Below are positions 15,261 through 47,175 of a stretch of DNA of 61,171 bases, in pieces. The notes beneath the pieces were generated by a model that was given only the letters and a program-made list of their open reading frames with translations, was not told the origin of the DNA and did no database searches. A program made the position numbers and the translations under genes. Positions within the stretch are counted from its first letter, which is position 1. Each line of letters starts with the position of its first letter. Origin of the DNA: Planctomycetota bacterium. GTDB lineage: Bacteria; Planctomycetota; Brocadiia; Brocadiales; Brocadiaceae. The stretch spans positions 1 to 61,171 of the forward strand of contig VGXV01000022.1 of assembly GCA_016873165.1 (NCBI GenBank), written 5' to 3'.

Positions 15261-17036
15261 TTATTTGACTTTTACCTTTATCTTTTCCTTCTTGCCGCCA
15301 GCCTTAACGGTGATCTTGGCTTTGCCTTTTGAACTTGCGGTAACTGTAAAAGATGCCTCGCCATTTTCGTCTGAAGTTAGTTTGTCAGGTGAGACAGTAA
15401 TACGCCGTTTTCCGCTCTTATTAAGTTTTACCGTGATACTTTCTCCTTCAACCAGACAATCATCTTCTCCGGTTACAGTCAGTGTCACTTCTGCACTTTC
15501 TCCGACTTTGAGGTTTAATCTATTTGTATCTGCCTCAATGTCTTCTGTTTCACAGTCGCCTGTTGCGCAGCCTTCAGTAGCGCCAACATTTAAATCGATT
15601 GTTTTTGGTGTTTTGCTATTTTTGGTAGAGCCGTCACCCAGTTGGCCTTCGTCATTTAATCCCCAAACATACACCTTGCCATTGCAAGTGATTGCAAGGC
15701 TATGGTATTCTCCTGCGGCAACATACACGATATCTTTTAACCCGGTGGCGTCAATCGGCTCTGAGCTGCTTCTTGTAGAACCATCTCCGAGTTGCCCTTC
15801 ATCGTTTAATCCCCAGGATTTCACTTTGCCGTCCTGTATGGCAAGGCTATGGTCGCTTCCACATGCAATGGCTGAAATATTTGCAATATCGATGACTTCT
15901 ACGGGTGTTGAGCTATTGATGGTAGAACCGTCGCCCAATTGTCCTTCATCATTAAGTCCCCATGCCCATACCTTTCCATCATTGTCGAGCGCCAGGCTAA
16001 ACGTTGTGCCTGCACAAACAGCATCAACGTTGCTCAGTCCTTCAACTTGTACAGGGGTTAATACCGGATTGGCGCTTGTTTCTCCATTGCCGATTTGCCC
16101 TACATCATTTAATCCCCATGCGTAAACAAAACCATCTTCGGTAACTGCCAAACCATGTGCATCACCTGCTGAAATTCCTTTTATAGAGGGCAGACCGCTT
16201 ACTATGACAGGAGTGCTGCTTGGTTCATCAGTGCCATTGCCAAGCTGTCCGTCGCTGTTGGCGCCCCATGTGACTACCGAACCGTTTGAGAGCAATGCCA
16301 TGGAGTATTCTCCGCCGGCAGAAATTGCAATTACATCGGTAAGGTTAGGTATCTGAACAGGAACATTGCTGCTTTCCTCCGTTGTTCCTCCGCCGAGTTG
16401 GCCGTCGCCATTATATCCCCATGCCCAAATACGACTGGTTGCGTCAAGCGCCAAATTATGATCGCCGCCGCAATCTACTGCGATAATGGTGGTAAGATCG
16501 TCAATCTGAACAGCTACAGGAGTTGTTTGACTGCTGTTTGTTCCATCCCCCAACTGCCCATCCTCGTTAATTCCCCATGCCCATAATTTTCCATCGGAAT
16601 CTAATGCAACACTATGGGTCCATCCACCTGAAATTTGTGGATTTACAGCTCCCGGTGTCGGTTGTGGTTCTGGTGATGGTCTTGGTCCAGGACCTGTTCC
16701 CGTTGGCTGTGGCCGTGGAGAGAAACTAGGTTGAGGCGGAGTTCCTGACGGCTGTGGCTGTGGAGAGAAGCTCGGTTGAGGAGGAGTCCCTGATGGCTGT
16801 GGCCGCGGAGAGAAACTAGGTTGCGGAGGAGTCCCTGATGGCTGTGGCCGTGGAGAGAAACTTGGTTGAGGCGGAGTTCCTGATGGCTGTGGCCGCGGAG
16901 AAAAATTCGGTTGAGGTTGAGTGCCCGTAGGTTGGGGTATTTGTGCATAAGCGAGATGATCACTTACGTAAAAAAAAGTCATTGTAAAAAGTAGAACAGA
17001 TATTATTGGTAAACCAAAAAAGCGTTTTTTAATCAT
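15261..17036 (-). CDS. Secreted RCC1-repeat protein with proline-rich linker and Ig-like tail
   Basis: 591 residues. A signal peptide (about residues 1-31, ending AYA-Q) leads into a linker of five 15-residue repeats of the type QPSGTPPQPSFSPRP. Next come about seven RCC1 repeats of roughly 50 residues (GGWTHSVALDSDGKLWAWG...GQLGDGT), expected to form a seven-bladed propeller. The C-terminal ~100 residues (after a CATGDCET motif) resemble a bacterial Ig-like or invasin-type domain ending in alternating V-K residues. Extracellular or surface location is likely; ligand unknown. It has no obvious sorting signal such as PEP-CTERM. It stands alone behind a long non-coding upstream region. Confidence 0.85.
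   Translation of the reverse strand: MIKKRFFGLPIISVLLFTMTFFYVSDHLAYAQIPQPTGTQPQPNFSPRPQPSGTPPQPSFSPRPQPSGTPPQPSFSPRPQPSGTPPQPSFSPQPQPSGTPPQPSFSPRPQPTGTGPGPRPSPEPQPTPGAVNPQISGGWTHSVALDSDGKLWAWGINEDGQLGDGTNSSQTTPVAVQIDDLTTIIAVDCGGDHNLALDATSRIWAWGYNGDGQLGGGTTEESSNVPVQIPNLTDVIAISAGGEYSMALLSNGSVVTWGANSDGQLGNGTDEPSSTPVIVSGLPSIKGISAGDAHGLAVTEDGFVYAWGLNDVGQIGNGETSANPVLTPVQVEGLSNVDAVCAGTTFSLALDNDGKVWAWGLNDEGQLGDGSTINSSTPVEVIDIANISAIACGSDHSLAIQDGKVKSWGLNDEGQLGDGSTRSSSEPIDATGLKDIVYVAAGEYHSLAITCNGKVYVWGLNDEGQLGDGSTKNSKTPKTIDLNVGATEGCATGDCETEDIEADTNRLNLKVGESAEVTLTVTGEDDCLVEGESITVKLNKSGKRRITVSPDKLTSDENGEASFTVTASSKGKAKITVKAGGKKEKIKVKVK
16692..16934 (-). repeat. 45-bp in-frame tandem repeats encoding the proline-rich linker
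   Basis: Five near-identical 45-base units encode QPSGTPPQPSFSPRP-type 15-residue repeats. Differences between units are mostly silent or single-residue (R/Q), so expansion or contraction by slippage is likely among strains. The repeat also creates spurious open frames in other phases. Boundaries are approximate. Confidence 0.8.
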
Positions 17037-18670: not shown

Positions 18671-18692
18671 AAGAGAAAAGGATATCCGGGAA

Positions 18693-21473
18693 TTAATCGC
18701 TGAGCACTTCTGCGATCTTTTGTAATAATTTATCCGGAGTGACAGGTTTTTGTAAAAAATAGAGCCCCTCATTAAGAATTGCTCTATTTGTAGTTATGTC
18801 CTCCGAATAACCGCTCATAAATATTATCTTTATGTCCGATCGTTGTTTTTTGATTATATTGTATGCGTCCTTGCCGCTTTTTTTGGGCATCATCACATCA
18901 AATAACAAAAGATCGATGTGTCCTTTATTCTCTTTATACTTTTGTATGGCATCATCTCCGTCTTCTGATGCAATTACTTCATAGCCTTTATATTCGAGCG
19001 TCTTCGTAACAATTTCCCTTACCGCCTTTTCATCTTCGGCCAGCAGAATTGTCTTTGCTTTTGTGAATACAGCAGCCTGAGTTTTTGCCACCTCCTTTTT
19101 ATCAGAATATATAATTTCCTGATCTGTTAAGGGTAAATAGAGAGTACATGTTGTTCCTTTGCCCGGTTCGCTTGCAACCTCAATGCAACCGTTGTGCTGC
19201 CTTAGTATTCCATAAACTATTGAAAGGCCGATGCCGGTTCCTTTTCCCCTATCTTTTGTCGTAAAAAAAGGTTCAAATATTTTTCCTTTGATATCTTCGC
19301 TCATCCCTATTCCGGTATCGGAAATAGTTATTCTGGCGTATTCTCCTGTATTCTTAAGTTCATAATTATTGACGAATGCACTTTCCAATTTCACGATATC
19401 TGTGCTTATGCAAACTTTTCCACCCTTCGGCATTGCGTCTGCTGCGTTGCTTACAAGATTTATTAATACCTGCTCTATCTTGTCTTTATCTGCCATTATT
19501 TTCAAATCTTTATCCGCAAGTATTACATTGCATTTGATGTTTTCTCCTGCTATTCTTAGAAACAGTTGTTCAGCCTGCCTGATAACATCATTCAGATTTA
19601 CCGGTTCAAGGCTTACCGGCTGTCTTCTGCTGAAAGCAAGAAGGCTTTGGGTAAGATTTGTGGCCTTGTTGGAGGATTCGATTATTTTGCTCAGGTATTC
19701 TCGCGCCGGATCATCTTCTTTCAATTGCATTTCTGTCAAATTCGCATATCCGATTATCGCCATGAGCATGTTGTTAAAATCGTGGGCTACTCCACCTGCC
19801 AGTCTTCCAATGGACTCCATTTTTTGTGCATGGTAAAGCTGATTTTTAACCTCAGTAAGTTCTTCAGCTCTCTCGGCGACTCGCTTTTCAAGAGTTTCAT
19901 TCAAGAGTTTTAAGTTTTCTTCCGCCTGCTTACGATCTGTAATGTCCTGTGAAAAACCGATAGCCCGAATACAATCGCCTTTTTCGTCGAATTCTAATTC
20001 TGCTTTTTCCCTGATCCATTTAATGTTGTTGCCTGCCACAATTCTATGCTCGATGTCATACGGTTTATTATTGCTGAGGGCTGCGTTCCATTCCTTTTGC
20101 ACATAATCACGGTCTTCAGGATGAACGCAATTAAGAAAATCATCATACGTAAGTTCAGTGCCAGGTAAAGCACCAAAAATACGATAATTCTCATCTGTCC
20201 AATAGATCTTGTTTTTATGAACGTCTAATTCCCATGTTCCGATAGTTCCGATCTCTTGTGCTTTTTTAAGATAATACCTTTGCAGCTTTAGTTCTGCGGT
20301 TCTTTCCTCCACTTTTTCTTCGAGTGTTTTCGACCAATTCTTAAGTTTTGCATTGGCGGTATCCAGTTCCAGAATCAAATCGTTTATCTGCCGCATGTCT
20401 CTGGCGATACATACGTACCCCAATAATTTCCCATTTAAATCCTGCATGGTTGATGTATGCAGACCGATGGGAATATTTTCGCCGGATTTTGTTTTGCAAT
20501 TTCTTATAAATCCTTCTTTTGTCAGTTCCTGCAATCGGGTTTTTTTCGGCGCTTCCTCTTTAAATTTGAAAATTATCCCTACCGGTTTTCCTAAAAGTTC
20601 TTCTTCCGTATATCCAAGTAAATGGCTGGTAGCTTGATTTATTCCTTTGATTGTGCCTTCAAGATCGACCAAAATAAGCGGATCTATCATGCTTCTGAGA
20701 ATTGTGTCGGTAAATTCTTTCGCGGCAACCAATGAACTTCTTGAACGTTCTATATTATCAATCATTTTATTAAACGTTTTTCCCAATGTGCCAACTTCGT
20801 CATGGGAAGAAAACTCTAATTTCCTTGAATAATCCCCTTCACCTACTTTTTTTGCCGCCTCTGAAAGTTCTTTTATGGGCTTTGAAATTCTAATGCAGAA
20901 CAGATAACCAATAATGAAAATTATTATGTCACAAACCAACATAGTAGGAAGGATTATCCGCAATTTGAAATTTTTGGCGCTGAATATTCTTTCAAATTCA
21001 TGTGTTATTTCATTGTTTAAGTTCAAAAGTTTATCGTTATTCTGACGAATAAAATCAATGGCATCCCTGGAAGTTTTCGTGTCATGTGTATTCTTGATTG
21101 CAATTGCCACCTTTTTCTTAAATGACTGCCAAAGTTCGCTATTGTATTGGAATAGTTCGTTCATGATTGAAGGAGCGGGAGGAATTATTATTCCCATGCT
21201 TTCTCCTCCATTCCAGAGTGTTTGCAGGGATAAATCATAGGTATTAACCGCTTCCTCAAGAAACTGACGGTCGTTGGTATTATCATTAACATAGACTATT
21301 GACAGAGCAAGTCTTGAAATTTTTTGTGATAACATCCTCTGCCGTCCGGCAACATTAACAATGTGATTGTCATGTTTCTGTGTATCTTGATAGCGATATA
21401 CAACGAACAAATTGGCTGCCGCCACCGCCAGCATGAGCAACAATAAAAGTGATATTTTTTTGTTGATATTCAT
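18693..21473 (-). CDS. Hybrid sensor histidine kinase/response regulator with PilJ-type sensor
   Basis: 926 residues. Residues ~8-28 and ~172-195 are membrane spans around a periplasmic helical region carrying VAGRQRMLSQKI, the signature of the PilJ/NarX-type N-terminal domain. Then come HAMP (about 196-250), two PAS domains (about 255-375 and 410-530), coiled coils, a HisKA H-box [11 protein letters not shown], an HATPase with DTGIGM and GKGTGIGLSI, and a C-terminal receiver domain with LLFDVMMPKKSG (phospho-acceptor Asp) and a conserved Lys in LQKP. No separate output gene is adjacent; the receiver may act in a phosphorelay. The ligand is unknown, though PilJ/NarX-like domains in other bacteria respond to small anions. 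Confidence 0.88.
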   Translation of the reverse strand: MNINKKISLLLLLMLAVAAANLFVVYRYQDTQKHDNHIVNVAGRQRMLSQKISRLALSIVYVNDNTNDRQFLEEAVNTYDLSLQTLWNGGESMGIIIPPAPSIMNELFQYNSELWQSFKKKVAIAIKNTHDTKTSRDAIDFIRQNNDKLLNLNNEITHEFERIFSAKNFKLRIILPTMLVCDIIIFIIGYLFCIRISKPIKELSEAAKKVGEGDYSRKLEFSSHDEVGTLGKTFNKMIDNIERSRSSLVAAKEFTDTILRSMIDPLILVDLEGTIKGINQATSHLLGYTEEELLGKPVGIIFKFKEEAPKKTRLQELTKEGFIRNCKTKSGENIPIGLHTSTMQDLNGKLLGYVCIARDMRQINDLILELDTANAKLKNWSKTLEEKVEERTAELKLQRYYLKKAQEIGTIGTWELDVHKNKIYWTDENYRIFGALPGTELTYDDFLNCVHPEDRDYVQKEWNAALSNNKPYDIEHRIVAGNNIKWIREKAELEFDEKGDCIRAIGFSQDITDRKQAEENLKLLNETLEKRVAERAEELTEVKNQLYHAQKMESIGRLAGGVAHDFNNMLMAIIGYANLTEMQLKEDDPAREYLSKIIESSNKATNLTQSLLAFSRRQPVSLEPVNLNDVIRQAEQLFLRIAGENIKCNVILADKDLKIMADKDKIEQVLINLVSNAADAMPKGGKVCISTDIVKLESAFVNNYELKNTGEYARITISDTGIGMSEDIKGKIFEPFFTTKDRGKGTGIGLSIVYGILRQHNGCIEVASEPGKGTTCTLYLPLTDQEIIYSDKKEVAKTQAAVFTKAKTILLAEDEKAVREIVTKTLEYKGYEVIASEDGDDAIQKYKENKGHIDLLLFDVMMPKKSGKDAYNIIKKQRSDIKIIFMSGYSEDITTNRAILNEGLYFLQKPVTPDKLLQKIAEVLSD

Positions 21474-21525
21474 TTGTTGTAGCTATTCTATGTTTCAGAT
21501 TTTTTCATTCTTTGTAAAGAATGAT

Positions 21526-24405
21526 TCAGGCAGAAGTATCGAATTGCATAGAATCAATATAAACATTATTAAACTCATTATGGTTCGCAACATTAATGTG
21601 TTCAATTTTATCTAAAATATCTTCTATTTTCCCCTCAGTTTCTTTGAATAATAAGCACATCTGTGCTCCAATACCGGCGGCGTTTGAAATACATTCTATT
21701 TTGTCTGTGGAAATATCCGGAAGCAATCCTATACGGATGGCATTCTTCACATTTAAATTCATGCCAAAAGATCCCGTCAATATAAGTTTGTCAATATCTT
21801 CAATACGAATACCATATTCCTTGAGCAAAATAAATATTCCTGCCATAATGCCTGCCTTCGCCTTTTGAACCTCTTCTATATCGCGGGCGCTTATTACTAA
21901 CGGCTGGAAAAAAGCGGTTTCCTGTTTGGGGACGAGAATATATCTGTCATTTCTCAGGTTATCAAACTGCGGTTTTTTTACAAAATAACCTCTCTGGTTA
22001 ATAATACCAAGCCGCAAAAAAGCCGCAATTGCATCAATTATGGCGCTTCCGCACAGGCCGGAAGGTTTGCTTCCTTTATAGGTAGCATAGTGAATGGTTA
22101 AATCTTCGTGTATATCTAATTTATAAATAATACCATGACCGGCGGTTCTGCCAGATGCGACGTAAGAACGCTCAAAGGCGGGCCCTGCTGCAACAGAAGT
22201 GGCGATGATTCTGTCTTTATTTCCAATGACGAGTTCCCCGTTTGTTCCCAGATCAACATATAAAACCGGCTTTTCCGAACGGTACAGTTCTGAGGCAATT
22301 ATGCCGGCAACCAAATCTGATCCTACAAAACCATTCAAGAGAGGGGGGAAAACAATCCTTCCGTTTTCGTTCATTGCAAGTCTTTCTTTTGTATACGTAT
22401 CCATGTTTGTGTATTCATAGCGAGATAAGAGAACCGGCACAAAAGGGGATTTTACAAGATATTCGATTTCAAAACCGAGAAACATATGATGCATAACAGA
22501 GTTTCCCACGACAATCATTTTGTAAATATGATTGTAATCTATGCATGCGTTTCTGGTTATTTTCATAATGAGACTGTTAATTCCTTTCAAAAGGCTATTC
22601 CTGAGTACATGCTTGCCTGATTCGTCACTCATGTACTGTTGTGCTCTGGTTATGATATTGTCCCCGAAATAAAATTGTGGATTCATGGAAGAACCATAGG
22701 CGACAAGTTTGCCCGTTTCCAAATTATGAATATAAATGGCAATAGTCGTGGTGCCAATGTCTAATGCCACTCCAAACGCATCACGGGAATGGCTGATGTC
22801 AACCACCGCATTTTTACCGCTATCCAGAATGCAAAAGAGAGGCTTATTGCCCCTGATCATATTCGGCAATTTTTGCAAAATAATTGGTGAAATATTCACG
22901 CCTTTTCCTGTAGCGGCACAGATTACTTCGACATCCGGTTGGGAATCGGATTTCTTCTCCAAAGAAACGGGAATTACTTGAATAGAGGGATTCATTACAT
23001 ATTCATTTGCCAGATTGTCAATAAATTGAAGAGAAACATCTTTTGTGTATACCATGGTTTCCGGATCGGTTCTTGATTCTTTTGGAACATAAACATCCAA
23101 ATCCGATGAAACCCTGAATAGGCATGCAAGACGATAGTTCTTCTCTTTTTGTTCGGAGGTGAGGACAATATCCTCTTTTTTTGAATAAGGAATCGGAGCG
23201 CTTTTTTCCAGTTGGACGATACAAGATCCGCAAACACCGGACTTATTGCAAAGTTGTGGTATGTGGATACCGGCGAGGGCTGCCGCTTCAATCAGGCCGA
23301 TATCCTCTTTCACATAAACTTTTCTCTGATATGGAGAAAAAGAGATGCATTTCATCCCTTTTCCATTTTTTCCGTATGTTTTATAATTCTGTGAAACTGC
23401 ATGAGAAGCATTTACCATTGCCGTAATGGTGTCGGGTGTTGCATTTGGTGGTATCTCGCATCCCGCGCCAAGTATAAACCGCCCTCTTTCCAGAGAAGCG
23501 TGAACGAGTTCGGTTGATTGGGTAAAAATATCCTCGGAACTCTCATTTACGAAAGAAAGTGATTTTATGTTTCCGTTAAAACACAGAGATGAAGACAAAT
23601 CGAAGGCAACATCCAGTGGCACCAAATAGTCAATGGTCATTACATCAAGATTGATATTCTCCATGTCTTTGATTATTTCCTGAGTTGCTCCGGCGACACT
23701 ATACCATGTAATAATCTCCGGATATTGTTTTTTGATAAAACCGTATATTTTTGCGAGATTCGGAAGTTCAAACTCTCTGAATATTTTTGGGGGAAGTATC
23801 GCAGGAGAGGCAGAAGGGTTAAACATAATAATGCTGTCCGCCCCTGCTTCCAATAAATGTTTTATGAATTCTAACGCGACTTCACAGGTATACGAAAGGA
23901 GCCTTTTAAAATTATTCGGTTCGTCAACTATCGCGTAAAGAAACTTTTCGATATCCATTATCCGGGAGGCAATTGTGAGAGGCGCAAGTGCGTGAGCAAC
24001 CACAGGAACTTTTCCCTGGCAGGCGTTCTTCAATATCTTTACCGCTTTGATAATCTCCGGCATCCTGCCTCTTTCAAGAGGGTCGGGAACAGACAACTTA
24101 TCCAAGTCACTGATGGATTGCATAACGGGCTGTTTCACATGCGGATAATTATCCGCAGGATAGGTTAGTGTGCACCCTATAGCCTCCGGCTCTACACAAA
24201 GGTCTGCAAAAGCAAATACCGCATCATACTGAAAATGTTCCTGAGCATTGAGCTGGCATCCCGCAATTACTGCTCCATCGGTAACATAGTCTCTTACGCT
24301 TTTCCCGCATAGTTTTGCAGTTACTCCTGCTACTTCCGGAATAACCGGTATACGATCAACTCTTTCATATTCTATGGTGGCTTTAACGCGTTCAAAAGAA
24401 TTCAT
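21526..24405 (-). CDS. URO-D-type methyltransferase fused to a [2Fe-2S]/ASKHA corrinoid-activating (RACE) protein
   Basis: 959 residues from ATG 24405, chosen over the in-frame ATG at 24438 because GGGGAAA lies about 9 bases upstream of 24405. Residues 1-340 form a URO-D/MtaA-like barrel. Residues ~350-445 are a plant-type ferredoxin domain with Cys386, Cys392, Cys395 and Cys428. The rest is an ASKHA ATPase domain (FGVALDIGTTT near 544-553, VDLGTNGE near 717, and a GSFG block near 877), as in RamA/RACo proteins that reduce inactive Co(II) corrinoids using ATP. The MtaA-type HxC zinc motif is replaced by WYSVAG near 234-239, while Cys316 (GAGCEIPP) remains. The gene lies 57 bases past a corrinoid protein gene, so the pair should act together. 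Fusion of transfer and reactivation in one chain is unusual. Confidence 0.85.
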   Translation of the reverse strand: MNSFERVKATIEYERVDRIPVIPEVAGVTAKLCGKSVRDYVTDGAVIAGCQLNAQEHFQYDAVFAFADLCVEPEAIGCTLTYPADNYPHVKQPVMQSISDLDKLSVPDPLERGRMPEIIKAVKILKNACQGKVPVVAHALAPLTIASRIMDIEKFLYAIVDEPNNFKRLLSYTCEVALEFIKHLLEAGADSIIMFNPSASPAILPPKIFREFELPNLAKIYGFIKKQYPEIITWYSVAGATQEIIKDMENINLDVMTIDYLVPLDVAFDLSSSLCFNGNIKSLSFVNESSEDIFTQSTELVHASLERGRFILGAGCEIPPNATPDTITAMVNASHAVSQNYKTYGKNGKGMKCISFSPYQRKVYVKEDIGLIEAAALAGIHIPQLCNKSGVCGSCIVQLEKSAPIPYSKKEDIVLTSEQKEKNYRLACLFRVSSDLDVYVPKESRTDPETMVYTKDVSLQFIDNLANEYVMNPSIQVIPVSLEKKSDSQPDVEVICAATGKGVNISPIILQKLPNMIRGNKPLFCILDSGKNAVVDISHSRDAFGVALDIGTTTIAIYIHNLETGKLVAYGSSMNPQFYFGDNIITRAQQYMSDESGKHVLRNSLLKGINSLIMKITRNACIDYNHIYKMIVVGNSVMHHMFLGFEIEYLVKSPFVPVLLSRYEYTNMDTYTKERLAMNENGRIVFPPLLNGFVGSDLVAGIIASELYRSEKPVLYVDLGTNGELVIGNKDRIIATSVAAGPAFERSYVASGRTAGHGIIYKLDIHEDLTIHYATYKGSKPSGLCGSAIIDAIAAFLRLGIINQRGYFVKKPQFDNLRNDRYILVPKQETAFFQPLVISARDIEEVQKAKAGIMAGIFILLKEYGIRIEDIDKLILTGSFGMNLNVKNAIRIGLLPDISTDKIECISNAAGIGAQMCLLFKETEGKIEDILDKIEHINVANHNEFNNVYIDSMQFDTSA

Positions 24406-24462
24406 CGTAATATTTCCCCGATTTATAACAGAGTGCATTTTATTAGGATGATATGCACATAT

Positions 24463-25125
24463 TTATATTTTCAGAAAATAATGTAACGCGTCAAAAGCGT
24501 CAAAGGCCACATAATCAACATCAATATACTTATGTTTTGCCTGCTGAACAGCGGCGCCACCGGCGACAATTACCGGTTGTATTGACTTTTTCATTGATAA
24601 AATTCTTATTTCATTAATAGCAGGCAGGCATACGGTCATTAAACTTGAAACACCGATAATGTCTGCTTTTTCCCTGATAGCTGCGTCAACAAATACTTCC
24701 GGCGGCACATCTTTTCCTAAATTAATAACTCTAATGCCGGACATTTTTGAAATGGTTGCCACCAAATGCTTCCCCAAATCATGCACATCTCCCTGGATAG
24801 TGCCGATAACGAGGGTTTTTGTTGTGTTGGTATCAGGATTTTTCGGAATGCATAGATCGGAGATTTGGTCCATGGCATTTTCAAGTTTTCTGGCAATTAC
24901 CTGATCAATTACTTCGGTCATTGCACGTGAAGCAAGAAGAACGTCGAGGAGTTGAAAATTTTCTGTGGTACATTTTTCTTCCAGTGCTCTTAAGGCAACT
25001 ATCAAACCATTACTAATAATCTCTTTAACGGGAACGCCCTGAGATATCAATCTGTCCGCCTCCGCAACCGCTTCGTTGTTCTCTCCTGCCTCCACCAGTT
25101 TTGCCAGCCGTATTACATTCGCCAT
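24463..25125 (-). CDS. Corrinoid (B12-binding) methyl-carrier protein, MtaC/MtbC-like
   Basis: 220 residues with the two-domain layout of methyltransferase corrinoid proteins: an N-terminal helical cap (about 1-90) and a Rossmann-type B12 domain. The lower-ligand motif D113-x-H115-xx-G118 (GDVHDLGK) is intact, followed by GVSSLMT and VIVAGGAAV, which contact the nucleotide tail in the family. It carries methyl groups between a donor-specific methyltransferase and an acceptor enzyme. The usual donor methyltransferase (MtaB, MttB or MtbB type) is not in the window. It is transcribed just before the URO-D/RACE fusion, presumably as an operon, and ychF lies upstream. Confidence 0.9.
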   Translation of the reverse strand: MANVIRLAKLVEAGENNEAVAEADRLISQGVPVKEIISNGLIVALRALEEKCTTENFQLLDVLLASRAMTEVIDQVIARKLENAMDQISDLCIPKNPDTNTTKTLVIGTIQGDVHDLGKHLVATISKMSGIRVINLGKDVPPEVFVDAAIREKADIIGVSSLMTVCLPAINEIRILSMKKSIQPVIVAGGAAVQQAKHKYIDVDYVAFDAFDALHYFLKI

Positions 25126-25181
25126 GCTTTTCGTTCTGTCACTTAAACTCTGAGAAGTTTATTTAATGGTGATTAAATTTT

Positions 25182-44342: not shown

Positions 44343-46991
44343 TTACTGCATTAAAGCACATCGGACATTTTCCAAAAGCTTTGCTGGCAAAAAGGGTTTT
44401 TGAATAAATGATAAACCTTCTTTCCTGAAAATGTTGCTGTCGACTATGTCTTCCGAGTAACCGCTGAGAAAAATAGCCTTGAGTTCCGGTCTGATTTTTT
44501 TCATTTCATCATACGCTTCTTTTCCGTTTTTTCCCGGCATTTTTACATCCAATATCAAAAGATCCAGGTTGTCTTTGTGCTCCATAAATTTATCTATGGC
44601 GTCTTTTCCGTCTCGCGCGATTACCACAGTATACCCAAATTTTTCCAGTGATTTTTTGATAAGGTATCTTACCGATTCGTCATCTTCCGCGATCAATATC
44701 GTTTTATTGTCGCTCGCACGGGTTGTGAATGCCTCTTGAATAAAGTTTCTTTCCTGTGCTTTAATTTTACTGGTGGCCAAAGGCAAATATACGTTAAAAG
44801 TAGAACCTTTGCCGCATTTGCTTTGAACGTCTATAAAACCCTCATGTTGTTTGATAATTCCATAAACAATAGAAAGGCCGAGTCCCGTGCCTTTCCCTAC
44901 CGGTTTGGTGGTGAAAAAAGGGTCAAATATTTTCTCTTTTTGCTCCTCATCGATGCCGGTTCCTGTGTCAGATACTGAAATAAGCGCGTAGTTTCCTTTC
45001 GTTCCGAAACCGCGTGATTTTATAAATTCATCATTAATTTCTGCAATGCCGGTAGTTATCATTAATTTTCCGCCATCAGGCATAGCATCCCTGGCATTAG
45101 ATACAAGGTTCATTATCACTTGTTCAATTTTTGTGTTGTCTGCCATAACAACAGGGTTTGTATCCGATAACGTTAAGATATACTCGATGTCTTCCCTCAT
45201 AAGCATCGTTGTGAATATTTCCGCGTTTTTAATAATAGTATTCATATTTTCAGGACGGGCATTAATACTCTGTTTTCTGCTAAAGGTAAGCATGCTTTGT
45301 GTCAAGGTGGCTGCTTTTTCCGCGGTTGAAAGTATCTTATGGATGTATTCTCTGACGGGATCATCATCCTGCAATTCGAGTTGTGATAAGTTGGCATATC
45401 CTATTATACCCGTGAGGATGTTGTTAAAATCATGCGCGACACCACTGGCAAGTCTGCCAACCGATTCTAATTTTTGAGCATGGAAAAGCTGTTCTCTTAA
45501 TTCTGTCCGTTCTTTTTCGGTGCGTTTTATGTCGGTAATATCTTCTTTGATCGCAAGAAAATTGGTTATCACTCCTTCCTGATTTCTCATGGGAGTTATT
45601 TGGGCGAGTTCCCAATAATATTCTCCGTTTTTTTTCTTATTATAAAACTCTCCCTGCCAGGTGCCGCCATGAGTAATAGTTTTCCATAAATGTTGATATT
45701 CTTCATCGGTGGTTTTTCCCGTTTTTAAAAAACGGGGGTTTTGTCCTATGACTTCATCAAGGGTGTATCCCGTTATTTCGTTAAATTTCGGATTAACATA
45801 TTCTATATTGCCATTTGTATCCGTGATTACAATGCAACTGGCGCTTTGTTCCACTGCCTGAAATAACATTTTAATCTGTTCGTCCTTTTGTTTGCGGTCT
45901 GATATATCCCTGATTGCCGCGGTAAAAAATCTTTGACCGCCTTTTTCCACGATTGTTTCTTCGATTCTCAGATCAATGGGAACGGCTTTCCCGTTTTTTT
46001 GAAGTCCTTCGAGTTCCACTCGTTTTCCCAATATTTTCGCTTTCCCCTGTTTAATATAATTTTCAATGCCTTTATGATGATCGTCTCTGTATTTCTGTGG
46101 TATGAGGATTTCAAGTTTTTGGTTAATTATTTCGTTCTTAGAGTATCCGAAAATATTGCATAGTTCCTGATTTACAAATTGGATAACGGAATCCTGATTT
46201 ATTGTGATAATGCCCTCGCCGACTGATTTTAATATGGCAGATATTTTTTCTTCCTGCAATTTTAACTCTTCTTCGGCGTATTTACGTCGGGTATTTTCGC
46301 GGTTAAGCGCTATATTGTTTCTTTCATGGGTATAGATATTTCCCAGAAAGCGGTCTACTTCCAATGCTTTTTGGTTGGGTTTCAGGAGTTCGTCCGGCGG
46401 CACATAATAGAAATTGTCGCATACCAAACCACGGTATATGATTTTCGGATGTGTGTGAATGATATTTGCAATTACTTCGGGCGGAAGTTGTTTGCGGTTA
46501 TATTGGCAGATTGCAACAGCGTCAATACCGGGAAAATAGCAGTTAAGCATTGCTTCATATTCTATAAATTTCTCAATGTTATGGTTGCCAGCAAGCAACC
46601 CGGTTGCTTCGCTTACCACCCTTAATGCGTTAAATCCTTCCATTTTTGCAGAAGCAATAATTTTCTGCCAGTACTGTATTGTTTTGTCCGGATCAAAATT
46701 GCCCTGATTAAGATACACCTGTTTTTTATCAAATATTGATAGAGTGCCGGCTTTCAGGACATTTTTGACGTCAATTCCCCCATTCTGCAAGGCATTTATT
46801 GGTACTTGAGAAGCCTGATAATCAACGACGTAAATGCATTTTTCGCCACGTTCCAAACCGATTTTAATAAAGGGTACGGCAATTTCTAATTGTTCTTCTT
46901 GTGTGTCACAAATCTGGCAAATATGATCGTGTATGTTGAATTTCCCAAGGGCCTCAATAAGTTCATTTTCAGATAATACGTTATTTTTCAT
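44343..46991 (-). CDS. MEDS-domain hybrid histidine kinase/response regulator
   Basis: 882 residues from ATG 46991. An open frame extends to 47066, but that part overlaps an HD-GYP remnant in another phase, so the later start is preferred. Residues ~1-225 are a MEDS (DcmR-type) sensor domain, containing [22 protein letters not shown] and [10 protein letters not shown]. Two PAS domains follow (about 255-380, 385-510), then HisKA with [11 protein letters not shown], HATPase with DTGTGIDEE and [10 protein letters not shown], and a receiver domain with [13 protein letters not shown] and a terminal LQKP-like FIQKPF. There are no membrane spans, so it is cytosolic. MEDS domains were first described in regulators of C1 compound metabolism, but the ligand here is unknown. 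Confidence 0.87.
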
Positions 46992-47004
46992 AGCATTTCG
47001 TGAT

Positions 47005-47175
47005 TTACTTAAACAGAAATCCTCTTTCATTAAAGACTCTGAGACAAGCGTCCACCACATCGGCATCGTAAATTATGCCTTTATTTACCGTTATTTCAAC
47101 AATGGCCTTTTTTGTCGACCATGATGTTCGGTACGGCCTTTCCGTAACCATGGCTTCAACAGTATCAGCGACATT
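47005..47175 (-). pseudogene. HD-GYP C-terminal remnant
   Basis: A 56-codon stretch reads VADTVEAMVTERPYR and DADVVDACLRVFNERGF, the terminal blocks of HD-GYP phosphodiesterases, ending at TAA 47005-47007. Upstream codons in the same phase remain open, but lose any similarity and lack the catalytic HD and GYP motifs. It therefore seems to be the 3' end of a lost gene, ending 13 bases before the MEDS kinase start. HD-GYP enzymes hydrolyse c-di-GMP; this fragment cannot. Confidence 0.6.

Follow-up and report, generated by a model that had tools for sequence, protein, structure and literature searches.

Enzymes of the URO-D fold are known from multidomain corrinoid-methyltransferase systems such as the CmuA and MtsA-type fusions, and in CmuA the fold is fused to the corrinoid domain and not to a reactivator. 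Other described systems keep their parts on separate chains: type 1 mlp gene clusters (Kountz and Balskus, PMC10418091) bring together a corrinoid protein, two or three separate Mlps of the UroD superfamily with a His-Cys-Cys zinc set and a separate Ram/RACE reactivase, and the bacterial O-demethylase and chloromethane systems MtvBCA, OdmB and CdmBCA (PMC13222342) and the archaeal Mto system (PMC8630106) combine a UroD-fold methyltransferase, for which zinc is not always needed, with a corrinoid protein and an ATP-dependent activator, all separate proteins accompanied by an adjacent tetrahydrofolate (H4folate) or tetrahydromethanopterin (H4MPT) methyltransferase. The reactivators of the RACo/AcsV type, for which RACo of Carboxydothermus hydrogenoformans (3zyy) serves as reference, consist of a Fer2 domain, a middle region and an ASKHA domain. 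Here, we describe a locus in a 61,171-nucleotide stretch of contig VGXV01000022.1 (assembly GCA_016873165.1, a planctomycete of the family Brocadiaceae; the whole stretch is called the window throughout) in which a URO-D domain and a RACo-type reactivator occur in one chain, encoded between the gene of a corrinoid protein and that of a hybrid histidine kinase, as follows:

18671..25181, (-) strand, three-gene islet of kinase, fusion and corrinoid protein, missing as a block in both genus-mates
18693..21473, (-) strand, hybrid histidine kinase of 926 residues, PilJ-HAMP-PAS-PAS-HisKA-HATPase-REC by Pfam, with two predicted transmembrane segments
21526..24405, (-) strand, URO-D::[2Fe-2S]::RACo(ASKHA) fusion, 959 residues from the ATG at 24405 or 970 residues from the ATG at 24438
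24463..25125, (-) strand, corrinoid (B12-binding) protein of 220 residues, Pfam B12-binding_2 plus B12-binding, with DxHxxG intact as GDVHDLGK

The first-pass annotation had read the central gene as a single 959-residue chain that tethers a URO-D methyltransferase to a [2Fe-2S]/ASKHA reactivator, and our analysis bears this out as a real URO-D::RACE fusion beside a corrinoid partner. The frame 21526-24438 (-) is uninterrupted over 970 codons, and within this single open reading frame (ORF) all four Pfam domains score above their gathering cut-offs (residue ranges in the 970-residue chain: URO-D 16-347, E 3.7e-71; Fer2 374-443, E 7e-9; Raco_middle 555-720, E 1e-44; RACo_C_ter 725-967, E 7e-71). 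Because a GGGGAA lies upstream of ATG 24405 and the homologue in a second genome begins at the equivalent Met, 959 residues is the likelier length of the protein. That second genome (G004; G, C and L numbers are our handles for genomes, contigs and loci) belongs to another Brocadiaceae genus and carries the fusion at 62% identity as a 953-residue ORF with no internal stop (contig C98, L027:2625-5486), so that an assembly error or frameshift as the source of the fusion, the risk flagged by the first-pass annotation, is ruled out by an independent genome. Between the window and G004, identity is 72% for the URO-D halves, 74% for the corrinoid proteins and 57% for the RACE halves; the proportion of nonsynonymous differences (pN) is 0.17 for URO-D and 0.26 for RACE with the synonymous proportion (pS) saturated at about 0.8, which places both halves under purifying selection. 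By these comparisons, the URO-D/corrinoid pair is the most constrained part of the system.

The reactivator half carries the hallmarks of RACE/RACo proteins, namely the [2Fe-2S] cysteines followed by middle and ASKHA domains with their phosphate motifs:

23110..23319, (-) strand, [2Fe-2S] ferredoxin domain, four Cys retained, CNKSGVCGSC...C (C-x5-C-x2-C...C)
22279..22776, (-) strand, RACo middle region, DIGTTT motif
21538..22266, (-) strand, RACo C-terminal ASKHA domain, DLGTNGE motif

It matches C. hydrogenoformans RACo end to end over about 600 residues (E 4e-86). The fusion nevertheless differs from RACo/AcsV proteins in its N-terminal URO-D domain, in the lack of any RACo_linker detected in the domain search and in its position outside the acs cluster, which in the genome of the window holds an AcsV of its own. 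The fusion scores 374 bits with the AcsV model, below the cut-off of 800 bits, and its RACE half and AcsV form separate branches in the tree. The RACE genes nearest to the RACE half of the fusion (L067 and L069, in genomes G067 and G068) have EF-G, EF-Ts and uridylate kinase-like genes as neighbours and are not close to any corrinoid gene.

The gene directly preceding the fusion encodes, as originally annotated, a corrinoid protein with an intact DxHxxG, and its B12-binding_2 cap and B12-binding domain are those of MtaC/MttC-type corrinoid proteins. No second MtaC-like corrinoid protein standing alone was found in the genome of the window (G000), where the remaining B12-binding matches fall in frames of different kinds and of greater or lesser length, and among 33 genomes of the family a close homologue (74-75% identical) was confined to G000 and G004. 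The G004 gene (74% identical; contig C196) comes after MetK, SAHH and DUF1015, the last of which abuts it, in the gene row at L072:3145-8675.

The URO-D half has lost most of the metal site expected of its nearest characterized relatives:

23398..24393, (-) strand, URO-D domain of the fusion, MtaA/CmuA-like by Pfam and model scores
23692..23700, (-) strand, zinc-site remnant Ser236-Val-Ala238 (959-residue numbering) where MtaA has His-x-Cys, by alignment
23458..23460, (-) strand, Cys316 (959-residue numbering), the sole retained zinc-ligand position, by alignment

Its scores are 165 bits with PRK06252, 139 bits with mtaA_cmuA and 100 bits with HemE, which rule out HemE itself, uphold the methyltransferase kinship previously assigned to this domain and suggest a descent from the MtaA/CmuA side. 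In MtaA and the Mlps, LHICG provides two of the zinc ligands, its His and its Cys, and a later Cys is the third; both the window and G004 have YSVAG...C in place of LHICG...C, so that two of the three ligands have been lost, with Ser replacing the His and Ala the Cys. The His-Cys-Cys set has been linked to thiol or selenol substrates, and zinc-free or altered sites occur in O-demethylases and CdmB (PMC10418091, PMC13222342); the fold also includes the donor-side enzymes MtvB, OdmB, VdmB and CdmB (PMC13222342). Given the loss of the zinc site, the URO-D half is unlikely to be an acceptor enzyme of the coenzyme M (CoM) type, and the acceptor-side MtaA/MtbA label of the first-pass annotation has to be given up. 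Among the matches of this half in PDB up to E 10, there was no entry of MtvB/OdmB/CdmB type.

We regard it as highly probable, on the strength of domains and motifs, that the fusion and its corrinoid partner make up a predicted self-reactivating corrinoid methyl-transfer module. From what is known of the families, such a self-contained device would work by the URO-D half presenting a methylated ligand to the Co(I) of the 220-residue corrinoid protein, with the tethered [2Fe-2S]/ASKHA half re-reducing, with ATP, any Co(II) formed by oxidation. The ligand would probably not be a free thiol such as CoM, since the thiol-activating zinc site has been lost.

The fusion is rare. Of 75 genomes of the class, two were found to carry it in full, the window genome (4.05 Mb in 191 contigs) and G004; the URO-D half, searched against 392 phylum genomes, gave no other close relative, a scan of genome contigs returned no fusion and one RACE match in a Lokiarchaeota contig, viral contigs gave no match, and the plasmid matches were limited to Thiodictyon and Azoarcus, members of the same URO-D clade without the fusion. 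Most other Brocadiaceae genomes (e.g., at L025) carry a row of separate genes, B12 - URO-D - URO-D - RACE, with intact zinc sites, which resembles a type 1 mlp cluster and in several genomes comes after a formate-dehydrogenase-like gene. Long open-frame values had hinted that the fusion might be common in the family, a candidate that was discarded as URO-D and RACE are separate ORFs in these genomes. The window genome is without this cluster and has a single URO-D protein, whereas type 1 mlp systems need both Mlp2 and Mlp3; unlike the Mlps, that one protein has a broken zinc site, is joined in one chain to a RACE from a different lineage and is accompanied by a kinase.

When 74 URO-D sequences were placed in a maximum-likelihood tree, those of the window and G004 fell into one clade, marked by a broken zinc site, with Thiodictyon, G039, G389, G297, Azoarcus KH32C and G160 (support 96/81). 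Gene context was read for six of them, G297 ending at a contig edge just upstream and the G004 fusion not lying beside its B12 gene, and in all six with readable B12 context the zinc site is broken, in several different ways, and a B12 gene and a signalling gene adjoin URO-D:

Window: B12 - URO-D::RACE fusion - hybrid kinase
Thiodictyon: B12 - URO-D - RACE - GAF/GGDEF diguanylate cyclase, the cyclase gene overlapping the RACE gene by 4 nucleotides
G039: RACE - B12 - URO-D - DUF1638 - hybrid kinase
Azoarcus (L114:11372-16521, KH32C plasmid pAZKH): B12 - URO-D - DUF1638::histidine kinase - hybrid kinase
G389: B12 - URO-D - DUF1638 - two hybrid kinases - response regulator-HD (RR-HD)
G160: Ser/Thr kinase - B12 - URO-D, the kinase ORF overlapping the B12 ORF

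The zinc-intact URO-D/B12 pairs whose context was read, by contrast, had a signalling gene adjacent in the same run in none of 11 lineages (Fisher p 8e-5 against 6/6), or in 1/11 under a looser rule that allows a 480-nucleotide gap (p 6e-4), figures that serve to rank a lead and not as proof because the grouping was made after the contexts had been seen. The nearest URO-D outside the two fusions, 41% identical to that of the window, is encoded on plasmid pTs417 of Candidatus Thiodictyon syntrophicum, in a cassette (NZ_CP020371, 38703-43694) with B12, URO-D and RACE in the same order and a signalling gene. Unlike in the window, its URO-D and RACE are separate genes 4 nucleotides apart, the RACE is only 26% identical to that of the fusion, and the output is a GAF-GGDEF diguanylate cyclase as opposed to a kinase. 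In the RACE tree, the Thiodictyon protein groups with that of G039 and the fusion's RACE sits on a branch of its own, and since these are not sisters, URO-D and B12 are the old pair, to which RACE was recruited more than once. Genetic evidence links DUF1638, present in several of these clusters and fused to the kinase in Azoarcus, to the reactivation of B12 (PMC5764234). The Azoarcus cluster sits between formylmethanofuran genes and a PQQ (pyrroloquinoline quinone) methanol dehydrogenase cluster, making it a candidate one-carbon sensor in a tractable betaproteobacterium.

The module had previously been confined to 21526-25125, leaving out the kinase, the gene of which begins 52 nucleotides downstream of the fusion gene. 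Together, the three co-directional genes are exactly what stands between pyrE and ychF in the window, an islet of 6.5 kb, and in both genus-mates pyrE and ychF adjoin (with an 11-nucleotide tail overlap in G002, 129 nucleotides apart in G001). A search for mobile-element ends at the islet borders yielded only short low-identity repeats, and its GC content resembles that of the surroundings. The sensory half of the kinase has a 54%-identical homologue in G004; the third-best match, in G010, is 40% identical over 297/420 residues, and the remaining family genomes gave only generic HAMP/PAS matches. The fusion, the close corrinoid protein and a kinase sensory half of at least 54% identity therefore coincide in the same 2 of 33 family genomes, where the chance that one such pair of features coincides, if independent, is about 1 in 528. 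This co-occurrence is supportive, not decisive.

Because the closest URO-D relatives adjoin signalling genes, we propose that the islet may serve to sense methylated compounds rather than to feed on them, which moves the interpretation away from the plain methyl-transfer pathway of the first-pass annotation. The output of the device would be a signal and not a supply of carbon, and the PilJ/PAS kinase may detect whether the corrinoid protein is methylated, Co(I) or Co(II), or may respond to the corrinoid/URO-D complex. That the predicted module feeds a signalling protein is suggested by context, and we put it forward as a tentative reading with the balance tipping slightly against it. More speculative, and less probable again, is a whole class of chemosensors in which a zinc-less URO-D methylates the corrinoid from an environmental donor, RACE spends ATP on priming the cobalt and the methylation of the corrinoid is read out by a kinase or cyclase; it is equally conjectural that the window holds a version of such a sensor which, if true, would have receptor and priming pump in one chain. 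Several observations weigh against a sensory role. The contexts were already known when the clade and the test were selected, and the numbers are small; kinases from different clusters are not orthologues of one another; and no RACE gene lies in the stretches read for Azoarcus, G389 and G160. In G004 the three genes are on three contigs (fusion C98, corrinoid C196, kinase homologue C241), and the kinase homologue there (L150:3301-5028) conserves the PilJ-HAMP-PAS half, differs in its kinase half and stops inside the ATPase domain. Anammox genomes are moreover rich in kinases, with tens of HAMP/PAS matches per genome, and a kinase beside an enzyme gene may simply regulate that enzyme.

This last point leads to the main rival, a catabolic role, which we consider unlikely. 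Here, the URO-D half would act as a donor-side demethylase that methylates the corrinoid protein from some compound (e.g., a methoxyaromatic or a halomethane), and AcsE would pass the methyl group on to H4folate and into the Wood-Ljungdahl pathway, with the kinase controlling expression only. The His-Cys-Cys set is not obligatory in donor enzymes of the UroD superfamily (PMC10418091, PMC13222342), both RACE and the corrinoid protein are intact, and the acs cluster of the genome looks complete, with AcsE and its own AcsV. In contrast to the MtvBCA, OdmB, CdmBCA and Mto systems, however, the islet has no adjacent pterin-binding methyltransferase (MTII), and neither it nor any related cluster read holds an H4folate methyltransferase; the signalling genes beside the nearest relatives vary by cluster and include a diguanylate cyclase and a Ser/Thr kinase, and the URO-D half scores as MtaA/CmuA among the PRK06252, mtaA_cmuA, MtaA, MtbA and HemE models compared. 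As for other donor enzymes, the earlier statement that no donor methyltransferase is present holds for MttB, which was not found genome-wide, and extends no further, as MtaB, MtmB and MtbB were not searched for; the sole URO-D protein of the genome is that of the fusion.

Much less probable is a role in the methionine/S-adenosylmethionine (SAM) cycle, in which the corrinoid protein and the fusion would supply homocysteine, or some other sulfur compound, with methyl groups in a host without MetH. The gene order around the G004 corrinoid gene, the absence of a MetH-type pterin-binding domain from the window genome (its PF00809 matches being DHPS and AcsE only) and the finding that RACE-like and DUF1638 proteins reactivate methionine synthase B12 in other bacteria (PMC5764234) would fit such a role, but methylation of homocysteine by a URO-D fold would need the zinc site that was lost, genus-mates G001 and G002 do without the islet, and the neighbourhood in the window has no SAM-cycle gene. 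An acceptor-side transferase of MtaA/MtbA type is more improbable still: the top solved-structure match of the URO-D half is the methylcobalamin:CoM methyltransferase of M. mazei (4ay7, E 6e-21) and it scores with the MtaA and MtbA models, but at 141 of 400 bits and 106 of 600 bits it falls far under these curated family cut-offs, the zinc His and one Cys are Ser and Ala in both known fusions, and CoM is not expected in this host. A decaying or chance fusion without function, which its very narrow distribution might suggest, is largely refuted and most improbable of all, given that two genera have kept it, that purifying selection acts on both halves and that no RACE motif has been lost.

Further features of the window and its genome bear recording. 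Another hybrid histidine kinase, at 44343-47066 (-), has an N-terminal MEDS domain (methanogen/methylotroph DcmR sensory domain) and a kinase half 47% identical to that of the islet kinase, and the protein encoded at 15261-17036 (-) has RCC1 repeats and, N-terminally, an array of PRPQPSGTPPQPSFS-like repeats. Genomes G000, G001 and G004 are alike in having no MetH-type pterin domain, with DHPS and AcsE as their only PF00809 matches, so they must use a methionine synthase of a different type. The hydrazine synthase alpha domain is present in 19 of the 33 family genomes, which identifies the family as the anammox Brocadiaceae; G000 gave no match to it although both genus-mates have one, and this gap may reflect either repeated hzs copies lost in an assembly of 191 contigs or a real absence.

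In the open-licence literature, we found no description of a URO-D::RACE fusion or of a kinase-coupled corrinoid/URO-D pair. The fusion is a new variant of known protein types, whereas sensing by methyl transfer would represent a new kind of system. With URO-D tethered to its reactivator, the locus offers a simple single-chain system in which to study corrinoid reactivation, and the kinase, the corrinoid protein and the fusion are three proteins open to direct expression and testing. If the sensory reading is true, it would reveal a new way to sense methylated compounds, in which the donor is measured by consuming it on an ATP-primed B12 protein, would give DUF1638-kinase proteins a possible function, and would indicate what bacteria of the anammox family detect besides nitrogen compounds.

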